Of a stretch of DNA of 9,287 nt, positions 2,387-9,287 are shown in pieces (within the stretch, counting starts at the first letter, position 1; every line of letters begins with the position of its first letter). The position numbers and the translations under genes were made by a program. The notes under the pieces were generated by a model. The model ran no database searches and had not been told where the DNA came from. It saw nothing but the letters and a program-made list of their open reading frames with translations. Origin of the DNA: Gemmatimonadota bacterium (GTDB lineage: Bacteria; Gemmatimonadota; Gemmatimonadetes; Gemmatimonadales; Gemmatimonadaceae); NCBI GenBank assembly GCA_031127185.1, contig JARIET010000096.1, forward strand, positions 1 through 9,287, in the 5' to 3' direction.

Positions 2387-3030
2387 CAGGCGTCGGCCAG
2401 CACGGTGAGCCCGGCTTGCGCTTGTTCACCGACCTTGACCCGAATCTTGGCCGTGGTCGGCAGAAACACGTCCACGCGAGAGCCGAAGCGAATGATCCCG
2501 AAACGCAGGCCCTGCCGGGCGGCGTCACCGGTCCGTGAGTAGGTCACAATGCGCCGGGCAATCAACCCGGCAATCTGGCGCACCAACACGCGTCCCTTCG
2601 GCGTCTCGATGCCGACCGACATCTGTTCGTTCTCGAGGCTCGCCTTTTCGATGGCTGCGTTGAGAAACTTGCCCGGGTTGTACTGCACATACGCGACGTT
2701 GCCCGTCACCGGATACCGGTTCACGTGCACGCTGAAGATGTTCATGAAGACCGAGATGCGGATCGCCGGTCCGCGAATGAACGCCGGCTCGTGCACCTCG
2801 ACGACGGACACGATTTTACCGTCCGCCGGTGAGATCACGAGGTCGGGTCCGCGGGCGCCCTCGCGCTCCGGATCGCGGAAGAAGTAATGCACCCAGATGG
2901 TCACGACCGTCAGCAGGGCCCAGACCATCCATAGCCACGGGAGCGCGGATGTGAATGCGATGACGAACACTACGAGCGTCACCAGGATCGCGGCGTAGAT
3001 GAACGGGAGCCCTTCTTTCGCGAACTTCAT
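2386..3030 (-). CDS. psd: Psd, phosphatidylserine decarboxylase proenzyme (short type)
   Basis: A 214-residue membrane-associated decarboxylase turning phosphatidylserine into phosphatidylethanolamine. It belongs to the short, single-domain class (about 200-220 residues). Two hydrophobic stretches at about 8-28 and 31-48 probably anchor it in the inner membrane. Conserved landmarks are HYFFRDPER (48-56), SPADGKI (67-73), the MNIFSVHVNR segment containing His102 (96-105), and RFGSRVD (181-187). In this family the proenzyme self-cleaves between Gly183 and Ser184; Ser184 becomes the pyruvoyl cofactor of the small alpha subunit. The site is intact. The ATG overlaps the purC stop as TGATG and its stop overlaps the pssA start the same way, so the two lipid enzymes and PurC are probably translated together. 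Confidence 0.95.
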   Translation of the reverse strand: MKFAKEGLPFIYAAILVTLVVFVIAFTSALPWLWMVWALLTVVTIWVHYFFRDPEREGARGPDLVISPADGKIVSVVEVHEPAFIRGPAIRISVFMNIFSVHVNRYPVTGNVAYVQYNPGKFLNAAIEKASLENEQMSVGIETPKGRVLVRQIAGLIARRIVTYSRTGDAARQGLRFGIIRFGSRVDVFLPTTAKIRVKVGEQAQAGLTVLADA

Positions 3031-3953
3031 CAGGCTCCGACCACCGGGAGCGTGGTACCCGTCAGCAGCTTGTAGGCCTCTCGGTACCGAAGGCTGGTCG
3101 CTTCAATCACGTGTTCCGGCAGGGTCGGCGGCGGCGCGTTGCCGTCCCAACGGCCCGCCTTCTTCTCACCGTCGAGATAGTCGCGCAGCGGCTGCTTGTC
3201 GAAACTGGGTTGCGTCCCGCCAGGTTCGTATCGATCAGCAGGCCAAAAACGCGAACTGTCCGGGGTGAGGACTTCGTCGATCAGGATGATCTTTCCGTTC
3301 GCGGTACCGAATTCGAACTTCGTGTCGGCGATGATGATGCCGCGCTTGGCCGCGAGGTCGCGTCCACGGCTGTAGACGAGGCGCGACAGCCGCTCGAGTT
3401 CGCCGGCCACGTGATCCCCAAGCAACGTCCTGACTTGCGCGACGGTGATGTTCTCGTCGTGGCCGACGTCAGCCTTGGTCGATGGACTGAAAATCGGGGG
3501 GTCGAAGCGGTCGCTCTCGACGAGCCCCTTGGCCAGCGGTTCGCCGGCAAGCGTCCCGCTGGCCTTATACTCCTTCCAGGCGGAGCCAGAGAGATACCCG
3601 CGAATGACGCACTCGACGGGAATGACCTCGGCGCGACGGCAAAGCATCGCCCGGCCATTGAGTTGGGCGCGAAATGGGGCAAGCGACGGGATATCCGCAA
3701 TGATCTCGTCCACGTTCGACGAGAGCATATGGTGGGCGACCTCGCCTTCGAAGTGCTTCAACCACCAGGCGGTGATCTGCGTGAGCACGGCGCCCTTGAA
3801 AGGCACCAGCTCGTTCATCACGACGTCAAACGCGCTGACGCGGTCGCTCGCCACGAGCAGGAGCCGGTCGGCATCCACGGCGAACACTTCGCGCACCTTG
3901 CCGCGGCGGATTCGTTCCAGTGGCAGGTCCGTGCGTCCAACGACTGCGGTCAT
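3030..3953 (-). CDS. purC: PurC, SAICAR synthetase, long (yeast-like) form
   Basis: A 307-residue enzyme that joins CAIR and aspartate with ATP to make SAICAR. Motifs run GKVREVF (18-24, nucleotide-binding loop), [11 protein letters not shown] (36-46), [19 protein letters not shown] (111-129), [15 protein letters not shown] (155-169), [10 protein letters not shown] (207-216) and [14 protein letters not shown] (224-237). The [12 protein letters not shown] and DSSRFW versions, and the length near 300, match the long form known from yeast Ade1 rather than the roughly 237-residue E. coli PurC. Its ATG overlaps the purB stop as ATGA (3950-3953) and its own TGA overlaps the psd start as TGATG. The enzyme precedes PurB in the pathway, and the genes are adjacent. 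Confidence 0.97.
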
Positions 3954-5389
3954 ACGCGAACGTCCTCACGCGTTGTGGTGGTCGTACTCGATGCGGCGTG
4001 GGCGAGGATGGGGTCCGCCACTTCCGCCAGAAACTCGTCGACCTGCTGCGGCGCCCGCCCGACGAATCGGCCTGGCTCCACCGCCGCGATGAGGTCGTCC
4101 ATGGGCACGCCGAACTCGGGGTCCGCCGCAAGCCGGGCAAACAAATCGTTGGGCACGCCGTGATCCTTCATCGCGCGCGCGGCCTCCACGCTGTGGCGGC
4201 GGATGACCTCGTGGGCCTGCTGTCTGTTGCCGCCGCGCTCCACCGCACGGACGATCAACGCCTCCGTGGCCATGAAGGGCAGTTCGTCATTGATCCGCGC
4301 GCGGATGCGCGCGGGATGCACCTCGAGGCCTGCCGCGATGTTTTCCCACAGGATCAGGATGGCATCGGCGGCGAGAAACGCTTCAGGGATCGAAATCCGG
4401 CGGTTGGCGCTGTCGTCCAACGTGCGCTCAAAGTACTGCACGCTGTGGGTCTGATTTGCGTTGGGCTCGAGAGAGAGCACAAAACGGGCAAGTGAGTTGA
4501 TCCGTTCGCTCCGCATGGGATTGCGCTTGTACGCCATCGCGCTCGACCCGATCTGTTCCTTTTCGAACGGCTCCTCGATCTCGCCAAACGCCTGCAGCAT
4601 GCGAATGTCGCTGGCGAACTTGGCCGCACTCGCGGCGAGGCCGCTGACCACGGAAAGTACCTGCGCGTCGATCTTGCGCGTGTACGTCTGTCCCGAGACC
4701 GGGATCGATGCCTCAAATCCCATCGCGCGCACCACCAGCCGGTCAAGTTCGCGCACCTTTGCGTGGTCGCCCTTGAACATCTCAAGGAACGAGGCCTGGG
4801 TGCCCGTCGTGCCCTTCACACCCCGCAGCGGCAAGCGTGATAGGCGTGCGTCGAGCTCCGCGATGTCGAGGACGAGGTCCTGCATCCACAGGGCGGCGCG
4901 CTTCCCTACGGTCACGAGTTGCGCGGACTGCAGGTGCGTATAGCCAAGTGCCGGCTCGTCGCGCCACGTACGCGCAAAGGTCGCGAGCGACTTCAGGACG
5001 GACACGGCGCGGGCACGCAGAAGCTCGAGACCGAGGCGCATCTGGATCAAGTCGGCATTGTCGGTCACATAGGCGCTCGTCGCGCCAAGGTGGATCACGC
5101 CTTTCGCCGCCGGTGCGGCATCGCCGAACGCATGGACGTGCGCCATCACATCGTGCCGGAACCGCTTCTCGTATGCCGCCACGGACGCGAAGTCGATGTC
5201 GGCAACGTGTGCCTCCATCTGCGCGATTGCCTCGTCGGTGATCTCGATGCCAAGTGATTGTTCCGCCCTGGCGAGGGCCAGCCACAGCTGGCGCCAGAGC
5301 CCGTGCCGCGTCTGCGCCGACCAGAGCTCCAGCATGGCGGCGGACGCGTAACGCTCGGAGAGGGGCGATGAGTACCTGGAGTGAGTCAC
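3950..5389 (-). CDS. purB: PurB, adenylosuccinate lyase, human-like subclass
   Basis: A 479-residue fumarase/aspartase-superfamily lyase that releases fumarate from SAICAR (giving AICAR) and from adenylosuccinate (giving AMP). Visible residues include the [12 protein letters not shown] segment (78-89, with His84/His86), the [14 protein letters not shown] substrate loop (100-113), GYTHLQSAQ with general-acid candidate His152, and the flexible signature loop [16 protein letters not shown] (281-296) that carries catalytic Ser282/283. [11 protein letters not shown] at the N-terminus and [14 protein letters not shown] (318-331) resemble the human/eukaryotic ADSL subclass. The superfamily signature proline is alanine here (AMAYK). 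The start is GTG at 5389, placed by homology just before YSSPL. It lies 19 nt after the degP-like stop, bridged by a 7-codon frame. The C-terminal tail is a low-complexity SSTTTTT stretch. Confidence 0.97.
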
Positions 5390-5409
5390 GTCTGCGCGGT
5401 GGAGGTCAT
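5386..5409 (-). other. Seven-codon bridging reading frame between degP-like gene and purB
   Basis: On the minus strand the degP-like stop TAA (5411-5409) shares its last A with an ATG (TAATG). That ATG opens a frame MTSTAQT ending in TGA at 5388-5386, which overlaps the purB start GTG as GTGA. It therefore joins the two genes at both ends and exactly spans the only 19-nt gap. Whether it is translated is unknown; it may be chance or a stepping stone for re-initiating ribosomes. Confidence 0.3.
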
Positions 5410-6827
5410 TACTGGATGGCGAAATCGGTGCTGAATACTTGTCCGCGACGCTCGAGGAACATCCGGATCCGACCGCGTCCGGAGTACGCCTCCAGTACTT
5501 GCTTTGCCTGGCGCGCGTCCCGGATTGGCGTGTTCATCACCTGCACGATCACGTCACCGCTTTGGATGCCGAGGTCTTCACTCACCCGCGGCGTCACCGT
5601 GACAATCAATGCTCCGGTGGCGTTTCGAATGTTGCGTTCGGTCCGAATCGCCGGGGTGAGATCGACCAGTTCAAGGTCCCGGAGCACACCGATGCGCTGG
5701 GCGCTGACTTCGGGCCGGTCGGCGACCGTCACCCGGATCTGCAGTTCGCGTCCACCGCGACGAATCGTGAGGGGAACTTCCTCTCCGACTCGCAGTTCGA
5801 GCAGTTCAGCCTCCCAGTCGTACGAGCTTCGGAGGGTGCGTTCCCGCGATTTGACGAGAATGTCACCGCGGCGAACGCCGGCCGCAGCGGCCGGCGAGTC
5901 GGGCGTGACAACACCGACGACCGCCCCACGACTCACATTGGTGCGGATAGTCTGGTCCGTGCCAGGCTCGCCGATCCTGACGCCGATCCAGGGCTGACGG
6001 GCCTTGCCGTGTGCGATCAGGTCGTCGGCCACGCGACGGGCGCGATCAATCGGGATCGCGAACCCCAGTCCGACTGATGAGCCAGTGGGCGAGTAGATGG
6101 AGCTGTTGACGCCAATGACTTCGCCGAGGGCATTCACCAATGGCCCACCCGAGTTGCCCGGGTTGATCGATGCGTCGGTCTGGATCATGTCGACGTACAC
6201 GCCGCCCCCCTCACTGCGCGCCGTGAGGTTTCGTCCCACGGCGCTGATCACGCCGGCTGTCACACTTGGCTCCGGATTGTCGAGCACGAATCCGTAGGGA
6301 TTCCCGATCGCGATGGCCCACTCGCCGAGCAGCAGGTTTCGTGAGGTACCGAGGGGCGCGACCGGAAGGTTGCGGGCCGGAATCTGTAAGACGGCCAGGT
6401 CGTTGAGCTCGTCGCTTCCCAGGAGCTTGGCCTTGTACGTCTGCCCGTCGCGCATGGCGACATTGATCGACGTGGCACCGGCGATCACGTGTGCATTGGT
6501 GAGAATCACCCCGTCGGCGCGGATCACGAACCCCGATCCGATCCCCGACGATGTTTGCTCACGCGTCTGGCGTCCGAAGAACAGGTCGTACGTGGCGACC
6601 TGTTGCACCGCCTCCGTCTGTACGGTCACCACCGACGGAAACACCCGCGCCGACGCCTCGGTGATGGCCGTGCGTCGCTGCGCGGCGATGGCCTGCGGCC
6701 GGGGATCCACCCGCTGCGGCGCCTGCGCGCCACTGGCATCCGGCGTGGCGGTGCCGCATCCGAGTGCGGCTAGGACCGCTACTAGCGCGTAGCGGACGGG
6801 CAACCGGGCGCCGCCAACGAATACCAT
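5409..6827 (-). CDS. DegP/HtrA-family periplasmic serine protease with two PDZ domains
   Basis: A 472-residue envelope protein-quality-control protease of the S1C family. The N-terminus has a basic start, a hydrophobic stretch (about 11-23) and Cys24 in the context AALGC, which could be a lipobox although Leu at -2 and Ala at -3 are not ideal; otherwise an ordinary signal peptide is possible. The trypsin-like domain (about 55-270) has the triad His113 (LTNAHVI), Asp143 (ELNDLAVL) and Ser226 (NPGNSGGPL). PDZ1 is about 280-370 (WIGVRIG, then SPAAAAGVRRGD) and PDZ2 about 378-468 (LGIQSGDVIVQV, then GRGRIRMFLERRG). Length and layout match DegP/DegQ/DegS-like proteases with two PDZ domains. The ATG overlaps the stop of the transaldolase-like gene as TGATG. 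It has no obvious biochemical tie to the purine genes that follow; co-transcription may reflect a housekeeping operon. Confidence 0.93.
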   Translation of the reverse strand: MVFVGGARLPVRYALVAVLAALGCGTATPDASGAQAPQRVDPRPQAIAAQRRTAITEASARVFPSVVTVQTEAVQQVATYDLFFGRQTREQTSSGIGSGFVIRADGVILTNAHVIAGATSINVAMRDGQTYKAKLLGSDELNDLAVLQIPARNLPVAPLGTSRNLLLGEWAIAIGNPYGFVLDNPEPSVTAGVISAVGRNLTARSEGGGVYVDMIQTDASINPGNSGGPLVNALGEVIGVNSSIYSPTGSSVGLGFAIPIDRARRVADDLIAHGKARQPWIGVRIGEPGTDQTIRTNVSRGAVVGVVTPDSPAAAAGVRRGDILVKSRERTLRSSYDWEAELLELRVGEEVPLTIRRGGRELQIRVTVADRPEVSAQRIGVLRDLELVDLTPAIRTERNIRNATGALIVTVTPRVSEDLGIQSGDVIVQVMNTPIRDARQAKQVLEAYSGRGRIRMFLERRGQVFSTDFAIQ

Positions 6828-7492
6828 CAGCGCGATCGCTTGGGCTTGGCGCGCCGGCTGATGGCGCCGAGGAAACGATCCAGTCCGCGATCGGTCAGGG
6901 GATGTTGTAACAGTGATCGCAGCACGTCGGGCGTGACAATCGCAACGTCAGCGCCTGCAGCCGCCGCAGCGGCGAAACTGGCAGCAGTTCCGGGGCCGGC
7001 CGCTGCAACGTCGCATTCCGCCGAACTGTGGTCGAGTGCCGCGCGCAATTCCGTGATCACGCCATTGCCATTGCCGCCAACGGCGTCCAGCGCGTCGACT
7101 GAGATCGTGACCATGGCCGCGCCGGCGTGAGCGGCAAGAATACCCTGGGCGGCAGAGTAAACCAGCGTGGCTGCGACGGGTATGCCATCGCTGGTGAGCT
7201 TCCGGATCGCCGGAATGGCGTCGTCAATGAACGGGATGGCGATGACGAGGCGGTCCGCGAGTTTCCGCAGATCCTTGGCCCCCTTGACGATATCGGCCGC
7301 GTGAATGGCGGGAACGCTGGCGCAGATCGGGAGGCGGGTGATTCGGCCGACGTCGCCGAGCACTTCGCGCGCATCGGCTTGAGGGGCCTCAGTCGCGATG
7401 ACCGTCGGGGTGGCCACGATGCCATCGATGAGACCGGCATCGCTGGCCCATCGGATTTCATCGGGTGAGGTGGTAGCCAGGAAGATTCGCAT
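6827..7492 (-). CDS. Transaldolase/fructose-6-phosphate aldolase-like protein lacking catalytic residues
   Basis: A 221-residue protein of the small transaldolase (FSA/TalC) family, which forms TIM-barrel decamers. Family features are MRIFLATTSPDEIRWA at the start, GIVATPTVIA (24-33), RLVIAIPFID (81-90), ATLVYSAAQGILAAHAGA (108-125) and a C-terminal HPLTDRGLDRF helix. Against E. coli FSA as I remember it, the chain aligns without gaps to about residue 166, yet the active site is changed: Asp6 to Ala, Asn28 to Thr, Gln59 to Ser, Schiff-base Lys85 to Ala (codon GCC at 7240-7238), Tyr131 to Ser, Arg134 to Ala, Ser166 to Gly; Thr109 is kept. It should not be an aldolase by the known mechanism. 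It has an alanine-rich stretch at 168-179 and a basic tail (RRAKPKRSR). The gene starts 3 nt after truA and overlaps the protease gene (TGATG). Annotation pipelines would probably call it transaldolase; a pseudoenzyme or a new activity is likelier. Confidence 0.88.
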   Translation of the reverse strand: MRIFLATTSPDEIRWASDAGLIDGIVATPTVIATEAPQADAREVLGDVGRITRLPICASVPAIHAADIVKGAKDLRKLADRLVIAIPFIDDAIPAIRKLTSDGIPVAATLVYSAAQGILAAHAGAAMVTISVDALDAVGGNGNGVITELRAALDHSSAECDVAAAGPGTAASFAAAAAAGADVAIVTPDVLRSLLQHPLTDRGLDRFLGAISRRAKPKRSR

Positions 7493-7495
7493 CGC

Positions 7496-8278
7496 TTAGC
7501 GGTTGGCGAGATAGAGGTGGGCGGGGTAGGTCACGCGCTCAAGCGTAAGGCCGCTGGCAGGCGCCGGCGGCGAGACGTCGTCATTGTCCGGGGCGGCAAG
7601 GAGGGCGGTGAAGTCTGCGCGCGAACGCCGCCCGGCGCCGATTTCCAGCATCGTGCCGACAAGGAATCGCACCATGTGGTGCAGAAACCGATTGGCTTCA
7701 ATTTCGAGCGTGAGCAGGCCGTCGGACTTGGTCCAGCGGCAGTCGTGGACCTCGCACTCGTGATTGTCGTCGTCAGGCGCCGTACCGCGAACGGCGAACC
7801 CGCGAAAGACGTGCGTCCCGAGTAACTGCCCGGCACACCAGTCGAGATGCGCCTTATCCGGCGCGACAGGCCCCGGCCACGGATGCAGAAAGCGACGTCG
7901 GAATGGCGACCAACTGTCATCTCGAAGTCCAACCACGTAGCGGTAGCGCCGCCTGGTGGCGCTAAAGCGAGCGTGGAACGAAGGGGCCATCTCGTGCGCG
8001 GCGACGATCCAGACATCGTGCGGTAGCTGCTGATTCAATGCGCGCCGGATACGCTCCGGCGTCCAATGTTCGGCGAGTGTGGCTCCGGCCGCTTGCCCAC
8101 TCGCATGCACTCCGGCATCAGTGCGTCCGGCACCGGTCACCCTGACAGGCCCGCCCGCGAGCCGGTCGAGCGTTGCCTCAAGCACCCCCTGAACCGTGCG
8201 TGTTTCGGGTTGCACCTGCCAGCCGGAGAAGTCCGTTCCGTCGTACTGCACGACGAGCTGGATGGCGCGATCCGGCAT
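7496..8278 (-). CDS. truA: TruA, tRNA pseudouridine(38-40) synthase
   Basis: A 260-residue enzyme that isomerises uridines 38-40 in the anticodon arm of many tRNAs. The start is the ATG at 8278, giving MPDRAIQLVVQYDGTDFSGWQ; the family regularly begins a few residues before the YDGT-x-FSGWQ motif, so the 46-codon upstream extension of the open frame is rejected. The catalytic aspartate is Asp54 in GAGRTDAGVHASGQ. Further landmarks are NQQLPHDVWI (82-91), FHARFSATRRRYRY (101-114), and NRFLHHMVRFLVGTMLEIGAGRR (from 196). Length is normal. It is the first gene of the minus-strand operon, with TAA 3 nt before the next ATG. No good Shine-Dalgarno is seen upstream; a possible -10 box ends only about 10 nt from the ATG. 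Confidence 0.96.
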   Translation of the reverse strand: MPDRAIQLVVQYDGTDFSGWQVQPETRTVQGVLEATLDRLAGGPVRVTGAGRTDAGVHASGQAAGATLAEHWTPERIRRALNQQLPHDVWIVAAHEMAPSFHARFSATRRRYRYVVGLRDDSWSPFRRRFLHPWPGPVAPDKAHLDWCAGQLLGTHVFRGFAVRGTAPDDDNHECEVHDCRWTKSDGLLTLEIEANRFLHHMVRFLVGTMLEIGAGRRSRADFTALLAAPDNDDVSPPAPASGLTLERVTYPAHLYLANR

Positions 8279-8287
8279 TGCAGGGAA

Positions 8288-8314
8288 ATTATCGGGTGGG
8301 GAGCCCCGGTTCAA
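8288..8314 (-). promoter_or_regulatory. Candidate sigma70-type promoter for the truA-pur operon
   Basis: Read on the minus strand, GATAAT (8293-8288) matches five of six bases of the TATAAT -10 box. TTGAAC (8314-8309) resembles a -35 box, with a 15-bp spacer, shorter than the usual 17. Transcription would start about 8281-8283, only a few bases before the truA ATG at 8278. This would make the mRNA leaderless or nearly so, in keeping with the lack of a visible Shine-Dalgarno. Confidence 0.35.
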
Positions 8315-8363
8315 GGAAAAACGCGCGCGTTCGTTACTGATTGACTTTCGCACGAACGTCCGG

Positions 8364-8377
8364 CCAGCTTTTGCTGG
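8364..8377. repeat. Small perfect inverted repeat in the divergent intergenic region
   Basis: CCAGC, a TTTT loop and GCTGG form a 5-bp perfect stem. It lies about 42 bp upstream of the plus-strand ATG, where it could be a regulator site or part of the 5' leader. It is short enough to be chance, and no second copy is seen nearby. Confidence 0.3.
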
Positions 8378-8418
8378 ACAAGGCGGTGACAGGATTCCAG
8401 CCCGCCTCCGCCCCATTT

Positions 8419-9287
8419 ATGACTCCACGCACGCTCGAATCGCTGGCGCACGCGCTGAGTGCCGCGAAGACGCTCGACGCTGCCCTCGTCGCCCTTGCCG
8501 AGTGCGTCGCGGACGTCGACCGCGGGGCATCGGTCGCGTTCCTGCGGGTCGATGCCCGGAGTGGATTGATCGTTGAGCGGCATGACGTGGCCGCGGGCGG
8601 CGTCGCTTCAGCGCCGCTGGAACTGTCCATCGACCAGTTTCCCCGCGGGGTGGTGCAAGGCATCTCCGCGGGGGGGGCATTCGTCGACGTGGGTGACGAG
8701 GCCCCAACGTTTGCGAGGATGCTTGGGTTGTCCCTGGACGCCCCGGCAGGCCGGCTCGCGCTGCGCGGCGTCCGCGTGGATGGGGAACTGGTTGGCATCA
8801 TCGCCCTGCGCGAACCCGTCCGCGTGTTCGGCGTGACTGCCACAGAGCGGGCGGGTCCCATGGCCGCCCTCTTCGATCTTGCGGTCCAACGAACCGTTGA
8901 GCGTGACGCACGCCATGAGGCTCAACGTGCGGTGGAGGACATCTCTCAGCGTCTGCACGCGGAGTACCTTGGCCGGCTTGGTGGCCTCGAGGAACAGCTC
9001 AAGCAGGTGCGTGAATCGACTCCGACACACTCCGGCGGACTGGACCCGCTCGAGGCCGAACGGCAGGCGGCCAAGCTGGCCGAGGAACAGCGGCGTTCCG
9101 CCCGAAAGCTGGCCGCGCTTGAACACCAACTGACGGCTTCGATTGGCCAGCTGGAGCAGGCGCATGTCGAATTGCACCGCCGCAGCGAGTCGCTGCGCCA
9201 ACGGACGCGCACGCTCTACCTGATCGATCGTTTGTTGACTCTCGCAGCGGCAACTGAATCACCGCAACTGCTGGCCGACGGGCTCCT
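8419..9287 (+). CDS. GAF-domain protein with long coiled coil (3' end outside window)
   Basis: An open frame of 289 codons running off the right edge with no stop. Residues about 5-135 look like a GAF sensory domain: an N-terminal helix LAHALSAAKTLDAALVALAE, strand VAFLRVDARSGLIV, and a terminal strand pair RLALRGVRVDGELVGIIALRE. Residues about 155-265 are Glu, Gln, Arg and Leu rich with heptad character, i.e. a coiled coil, interrupted at 199-207 by a Pro/Ser/Gly stretch. The last residues, LYLIDRLLTLAAATESPQLLADG, look like the start of a second GAF domain. The remainder may be another GAF, GGDEF or kinase module, which cannot be told here. The ATG at 8419 is chosen because the GAF helix begins directly after it; an in-frame GTG at 8386 is an alternative. 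No clear ribosome site is seen. Transcription is divergent from truA, so a shared regulatory region is possible. Confidence 0.82.
   Translation, partial: MTPRTLESLAHALSAAKTLDAALVALAECVADVDRGASVAFLRVDARSGLIVERHDVAAGGVASAPLELSIDQFPRGVVQGISAGGAFVDVGDEAPTFARMLGLSLDAPAGRLALRGVRVDGELVGIIALREPVRVFGVTATERAGPMAALFDLAVQRTVERDARHEAQRAVEDISQRLHAEYLGRLGGLEEQLKQVRESTPTHSGGLDPLEAERQAAKLAEEQRRSARKLAALEHQLTASIGQLEQAHVELHRRSESLRQRTRTLYLIDRLLTLAAATESPQLLADGL

Follow-up and report, generated by a model that had tools for sequence, protein, structure and literature searches.

A small transaldolase homologue that has lost its catalytic lysine is kept between truA and htrA in a Gemmatimonadota family

The window, by which we mean the whole stretch of 9,287 nucleotides analysed from a Gemmatimonadota bacterium, carries on its minus strand a gene (6827..7492) for a protein of 221 aa, which the open reading frame with its PF00923 match, an alignment and a structural model identify as a small transaldolase homologue (TalC/FSA type) without the catalytic lysine. 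Its conserved upstream neighbour is truA (7496..8416, minus strand), encoding a tRNA pseudouridine synthase, the stop of which is separated by a gap of 3 nt from the start of the transaldolase homologue. Downstream lies an htrA/degP-like gene for a serine protease with PDZ domains (5409..6827, minus strand), assigned, as was truA, by profile match and neighbour comparison. Its start overlaps the stop of the transaldolase homologue by one base; this overlap and the intact frame had been noticed in the preliminary description of this DNA and were found as described. Two further conserved neighbours on the minus strand, recognised by profile matches, encode an adenylosuccinate lyase-like protein (purB, 3950..5389) and a SAICAR synthetase (purC, 3030..3953), and are followed by genes for a phosphatidylserine decarboxylase, a CDP-alcohol phosphatidyltransferase and a glutamine amidotransferase domain protein (the names purB, purC, purS, purQ, psd and pssA were assigned by us). 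None of the genes neighbouring the transaldolase homologue in the window points to a pathway. The listed start of truA is probably too early, since some relatives have stops in the stretch 8278-8416, ahead of the match to MPDRAIQL; the true start is probably at 8278. Beside truA, a divergent open frame on the plus strand (8341-9285) continues past the end of the window.

The window protein scored 66.2 bits against the TAL_FSA superfamily profile PF00923 (cut-off 27) and 144.6 against the equivalog profile TIGR00875 (fsa_talC_mipB), below its cut-off of 245.95, which an orthologue with Lys85 from a sister family (L065) exceeded with 296.2. Its best solved relatives were the small transaldolases of Bacillus subtilis, Thermoplasma acidophilum and Thermotoga maritima. 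The model of the protein superposed over 212 residues and has the (beta/alpha)8 barrel with a C-terminal helix that characterises small transaldolase/FSA enzymes. These enzymes are decamers made of two pentamers with helix swapping. In the window protein, the conserved residues 197-208 (HPLTDRGLDRFL; 6869..6904, minus strand; located by conservation and helix assignment) run into the last helix (200-212), which we take to be the one swapped in FSA; the window protein would presumably form a ring as well. The part of the FSA report available to us describes helices swapped between the subunits of the rings (PMC13259622). A K86A variant of the T. acidophilum transaldolase was crystallised, according to the portion of the entry consulted (3s1w), indicating that loss of the lysine need not unfold the barrel.

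Almost the entire active site has been replaced. Codon 85 (GCC, 7238..7240) encodes an alanine in place of the Schiff-base lysine of strand 4. According to the alignment, the residues that surround this lysine (Asp6, Asn28, Glu/Gln59 and Phe/Tyr131) are Ala (7475..7477), Thr (7409..7411), Ser (7316..7318) and Ser, and those of the phosphate side (Arg134, Ser166 and Lys/Arg168) are Ala, Gly (6995..6997) and Gly; Ser131 and Ala134 lie within 7091..7102, and all these positions are on the minus strand. In comparison with the small transaldolases TalC/MipB (TIGR00875; 3r8r from B. subtilis, 1vpx from T. maritima, 3s0c from T. acidophilum), the window protein lacks Lys85, Asp6, Asn28, Glu59, Phe131, Arg134, Ser166 and Arg168, and in comparison with the Escherichia coli fructose-6-phosphate aldolase FsaA (1l6w) it keeps only Thr109 out of eight active-site residues. 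The preliminary description had listed the replacements of Lys85 (by Ala), Asp6, Asn28, Gln59, Tyr131, Arg134 and Ser166, with Thr109 as the sole survivor of its eight FSA residues, and the alignment agrees with it on every position. It had also judged a sequencing error at codon 85 improbable; given the state of this codon in relatives and database clusters, such an error is very unlikely. A lysine on the equivalent barrel strand, which it had named as one of the observations that would overturn its reading, was looked for and is absent: sequence and model together show that the window protein has no lysine on any strand. A shifted or relocated lysine can likewise be ruled out in its family, where 41 of 72 aligned copies have a lysine on or adjacent to a strand, none of them near strand 4; 33 of the 41 have it at residue 2 and the rest are scattered (105, 126, 127 and 187). 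Lysines present in at least 30% of the 72 copies are those at residues 2 (33 copies), 77 (36), 122 (56) and 216 (32), and lysines 2 and 122 are common in the Lys85 enzymes too. Mutation of Lys85 abolishes FSA activity, as stated in the part of the report accessible to us (PMC13259622). Judging from its sequence, the window protein cannot carry out the known lysine-based transaldolase chemistry.

We compared the window with relatives from its own family (f1), two sister families of the same order (f2 and f3) and other orders of the class (f4 and f5). Judging from the names of database relatives (Gemmatimonadetes bacterium, Gemmatimonadaceae bacterium and Gemmatimonadales bacterium), f1 is presumably the Gemmatimonadaceae. 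A match was found in 95 of 149 genomes (own genome and relatives), a few of these matching only weakly, to a long transaldolase. Within f1, 66 of 89 genomes had a copy readable at position 85. All these copies but one had truA upstream (65/66; in L095 the contig starts within the gene) and, again in 65 of 66, htrA downstream, the exception being L018, from G013 in the window's own genus, where purB comes directly next. In 17 of the 89 genomes, truA is followed by htrA with no transaldolase gene between them, which makes the gene dispensable; in the six others (G017, G027, G049, G054, G061 and G074) the locus falls at contig ends, or truA was not found or only as a fragment. Lys85 occurred in none of 67 f1 rows (taken as 66 genomes) as against 24 of 24 f2/f3 rows, and eight additional f1 copies in the truA slot were also devoid of it, bringing the total for f1 to 0 of 74. 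This Lys-less form spans at least 24 genera. Residue 85 is Gln in 34, Ala in 26, Glu in eight, Met in two and Arg in two of the 72 aligned f1 copies; outside these 72, it is Arg in L095 and Ala in the frame-broken L176. The 24 f2/f3 copies share, together with Lys85, the same ten active-site residues, and 23 of them occupy the slot (the copy of G145 lies elsewhere). The full catalytic set was also found in all 20 copies read from f4/f5, 17 of which have truA upstream (L187-L189 are without the window's neighbours in the fetched stretch), and in L178, from G162 of another class, which is without these neighbours in the fetched stretch. The downstream side of the slot differs among the sister families: purB directly follows the transaldolase gene, with no htrA, at 16 of 21 f2 loci (e.g., L064-L071), and both f3 loci have htrA. 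Three f1 genomes (G033, G036 and G053) contain a second small homologue with Lys85 away from the window's neighbour genes (L092, L094 and L177, respectively); the longer match in G053 includes one TGA.

In a gene tree of 94 rows, built by a quick method with column 85 included, f1 formed one clade (SH-aLRT 98) with a single change of Lys85. At its base stood the genera g34, g21 and g32, in which Lys85 has become Met or Glu and Asp6, Thr109, Ser129, Phe131, Arg134, Ser166 and Arg168 are retained in 7/7 rows; in the f1 copies outside these genera, most of the pocket is gone. Lys85 thus seems to have been lost first and the remaining pocket later. The tree of TruA+HtrA placed the pocket-keeping genera inside f1, not at its base. 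With the data from these neighbour genes, a tree uniting the 65 pocket-lost rows in one clade was not rejected (p-AU 0.39), so that the pocket may have decayed once or several times.

We think it probable that the window protein is a dead transaldolase homologue retained for binding or as a scaffold, without catalysis and presumably in the form of a ring. By its sequence it would qualify as a pseudoenzyme, being homologous to an enzyme, having lost the catalytic residues and being conserved rather than decaying. The alternative that survives best, although we regard it as unlikely, is that it became a different enzyme, one that would work in the old barrel with no Schiff base and would have its active site in the rebuilt pocket, with Thr28, Ser59, Thr109 and Thr129. 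The conservation of the rebuilt pocket is what speaks for it. In the Ala85 clade (genera g1, g13 and g23), A6, V26, A27, T28, P29, S59, A85, T109 and G166 are identical in 26/26 rows, and five of these nine residues (A6, V26, T28, S59 and T109) are invariant in 120/120 sequences of a set comprising the best 120 of 335 database clusters, all close to the window protein. Residue 85 is Ala in 113 and Ser in seven of these best 120 of 335 clusters, and residues 131, 134 and 168 vary among them while the donor side is fixed. Moreover, residues 134 and 166 have changed in a way similar to the engineered FSA variants R134V/S166G, as far as the titles of the structures tell. Against a new enzyme stand the lack of any charged residue at these pocket positions, the distribution of Cys57, conserved in genus g1 and not in g13 or g23, the lack of a conserved strand lysine apart from residue 2, and the failure of the neighbouring genes to suggest a pathway. 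A weak point of the preferred reading is that the strength of the pocket conservation depends on the column set: nine pocket columns, picked after inspecting the data, averaged 0.096 bits in the best 120 of 335 clusters versus 0.498 for the other strand columns, with only 28 of 10,000 random draws as low. For ten columns taken from the literature, 1,940 of 10,000 draws were as low in the same best 120 of 335 clusters, and genus g1 alone did not rise above chance (1,182/10,000). These ten columns were more conserved than chance in the 26 rows of the Ala85 clade (210/10,000) and more variable than average in the 40 rows of the Gln/Arg/Glu type (9,975/10,000), a variability that argues against a single ligand for the whole family.

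Less likely still, and in our view rather improbable, is that the gene is a slowly decaying leftover from the time when a long transaldolase made it redundant, lingering in a tight operon where htrA may need it in order to be translated. The one-base overlap with htrA fits this idea, as do the second transaldolase present in most f1 genomes, the repeated clean absence of the gene, which requires seven changes on the TruA+HtrA tree (six of them forced by starred branches), and a frame break that splits the homologue of G160 (L176:2493-3123), which may reflect decay or an assembly error. The Lys-less protein also diverges faster over long distances, with a mean identity of 46% versus 63% for TruA and 64% for HtrA; the Lys85 form shows the reverse pattern (70% versus 59% and 59%, in seven genomes). 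However, no break interrupts the frame over the stretch read in 73 of 74 f1 copies, truA and htrA are adjacent without the gene in the 17 genomes mentioned above, and 47 of 208 columns are invariant across the best 120 of 335 database clusters. The ratio dN/dS of the gene is, besides, as low as in its neighbours. It was estimated by NG86 on 20 f1 and seven f2 close pairs, hand-picked from the tree and table and with some genomes used in more than one pair. The median for the Lys-less gene in f1 was 0.079 (range 0.022-0.204, 20 pairs), compared with 0.093 for HtrA (19 pairs), 0.155 for TruA (20) and 0.066 for PurB (8); in f2, the medians were 0.048 for the Lys85 copy (7 pairs), 0.142 for TruA (6) and 0.087 for PurB (6). 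The retained Lys-less copies are under purifying selection like the neighbouring genes, and the low dN/dS rules out a recent pseudogene. In the close f1 pairs, dS of TruA was about half that of its neighbours (median 0.34 versus 0.65 and 0.65).

Conservation has moved in f1 from the active site to the core of the fold and the segment 197-208. With genus-based weighting of the columns (66 rows from 24 genera), the active-site columns, at 0.0 bits in f2/f3, reached 2.32 in f1, versus a mean rise of 1.07 for all columns, and none of 10,000 random column sets matched this increase. Columns 197-208 (0.75 bits) and helix 114-125 (0.63) lie well below the f1 average of 1.63, and Cys160 (0.94; Thr in f2/f3), Ala108, Pro167 and Phe173 are newly conserved. 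Together, alignment, model and dN/dS support the proposal of the preliminary description that purifying selection has kept the fold after the Schiff-base and phosphate residues were gone; random decay in close relatives, which it had regarded as contrary evidence, is not general there, the break in G160 being the one case in 74 copies.

A further possibility, which we consider very unlikely, is that the protein joins an active transaldolase as a regulatory or hetero-oligomeric subunit. Pairing with an active paralogue is common among pseudoenzymes, which lends this idea some appeal, and PDX1.2 is such a subunit for PLP synthase. A potential partner is widespread: among the 89 f1 genomes, a long transaldolase was found near full length in 83 and as fragments in two, and was not found in four. 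The long transaldolase of the window genome (L001, 370 aa), the copy inspected by eye, shows the motifs IKVP and SNP. However, the long transaldolase belongs to another subfamily, a small copy with Lys85 was seen in only the three f1 genomes mentioned above, and the window genome, which is 61% complete, shows two PF00923 genes. Joint work with HtrA is also unlikely on reading the sequences, as the N-terminus of HtrA looks exported and that of the transaldolase homologue does not.

Returning to a retained non-catalytic protein as the preferred reading, its history may have begun with a copy carrying the full catalytic set in the same slot, as seen in the sister families and, further out, in other orders of the class. 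The presence of a long transaldolase elsewhere in most f1 genomes suggests that catalysis by the small one was probably dispensable, the long enzyme having presumably taken over the pathway. A second transaldolase alone does not force the loss of the lysine, because the short copy retains Lys85 in the four f2/f3 genomes that have both types (by hand count, 20 of the 60 f2/f3 genomes have only the short type, 31 only the long one, four both and five neither or fragments). Lys85 would then have been lost once, in f1. The forms of g34, g21 and g32, with Met or Glu at position 85 and Arg134, Ser166 and Arg168 kept, may still bind sugar phosphates. In the clade of the window, a fixed uncharged pocket (A6, V26, T28, S59, A85, T109 and G166), whose conservation in the best 120 of 335 clusters speaks for this reading too, would have replaced the charged one; it might hold a different, uncharged ligand or just brace the barrel, with the ring supplying the working surface. 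We advance more tentatively, as quite possible though short of probable, the combined proposal that the enzyme was inactivated a single time in its own slot, in the ancestor of the family, that its barrel was then re-used, with lineages rebuilding, losing or deleting the old active site, and that the new uncharged pocket of the window's lineage serves a new ligand or a lysine-free reaction.

Pseudoenzymes are often paralogues standing beside an active copy. Here, the gene lost its lysine within its own operon, and catalytically complete relatives occupy the same slot in sister families. The closest precedent that we encountered is the class II aldolase domain of adducin, likewise an aldolase fold without catalysis, which the part of the source available to us presents as an oligomeric protein-binding domain in which the C-terminal helix and the subunit interface have roles (PMC12599920). 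Adducin differs, on the same partial basis, in belonging to another aldolase class and to animals and in having known partners (PMC12599920), whereas the window protein changed in the enzyme's own chromosomal slot. A small transaldolase of Bacillus methanolicus MGA3 has also lost its activity, but through truncation by point mutations in one strain, as far as the portion of that report at hand goes (PMC7092467), in contrast with the conserved group under selection described here. Among the titles and abstract openings of the open-access literature on transaldolase together with pseudoenzyme or Gemmatimonad, we found no dead transaldolase like that of the window. The slot offers an ordered series (Lys85 kept, Lys-less with pocket, pocket rebuilt, gene deleted) in which to ask what sustains a dead enzyme and, if the barrel has indeed been re-used, a natural experiment in an enzyme becoming something else.

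The Lys-less copies also call for caution in annotation, as they are labelled transaldolase or may pass an aldolase cut-off. The source names of the best 120 of 335 clusters, where given, were mostly transaldolase. In L083 (4034-4699, G037), L085 and L060, Lys85 is replaced by Glu and nearly all the other active-site residues are kept, which makes such copies good candidates for sugar-phosphate binding without catalysis. L083 passes the TIGR00875 cut-off despite this replacement (250.6 versus 245.95), and automatic annotation would consequently name it a fructose-6-phosphate aldolase.
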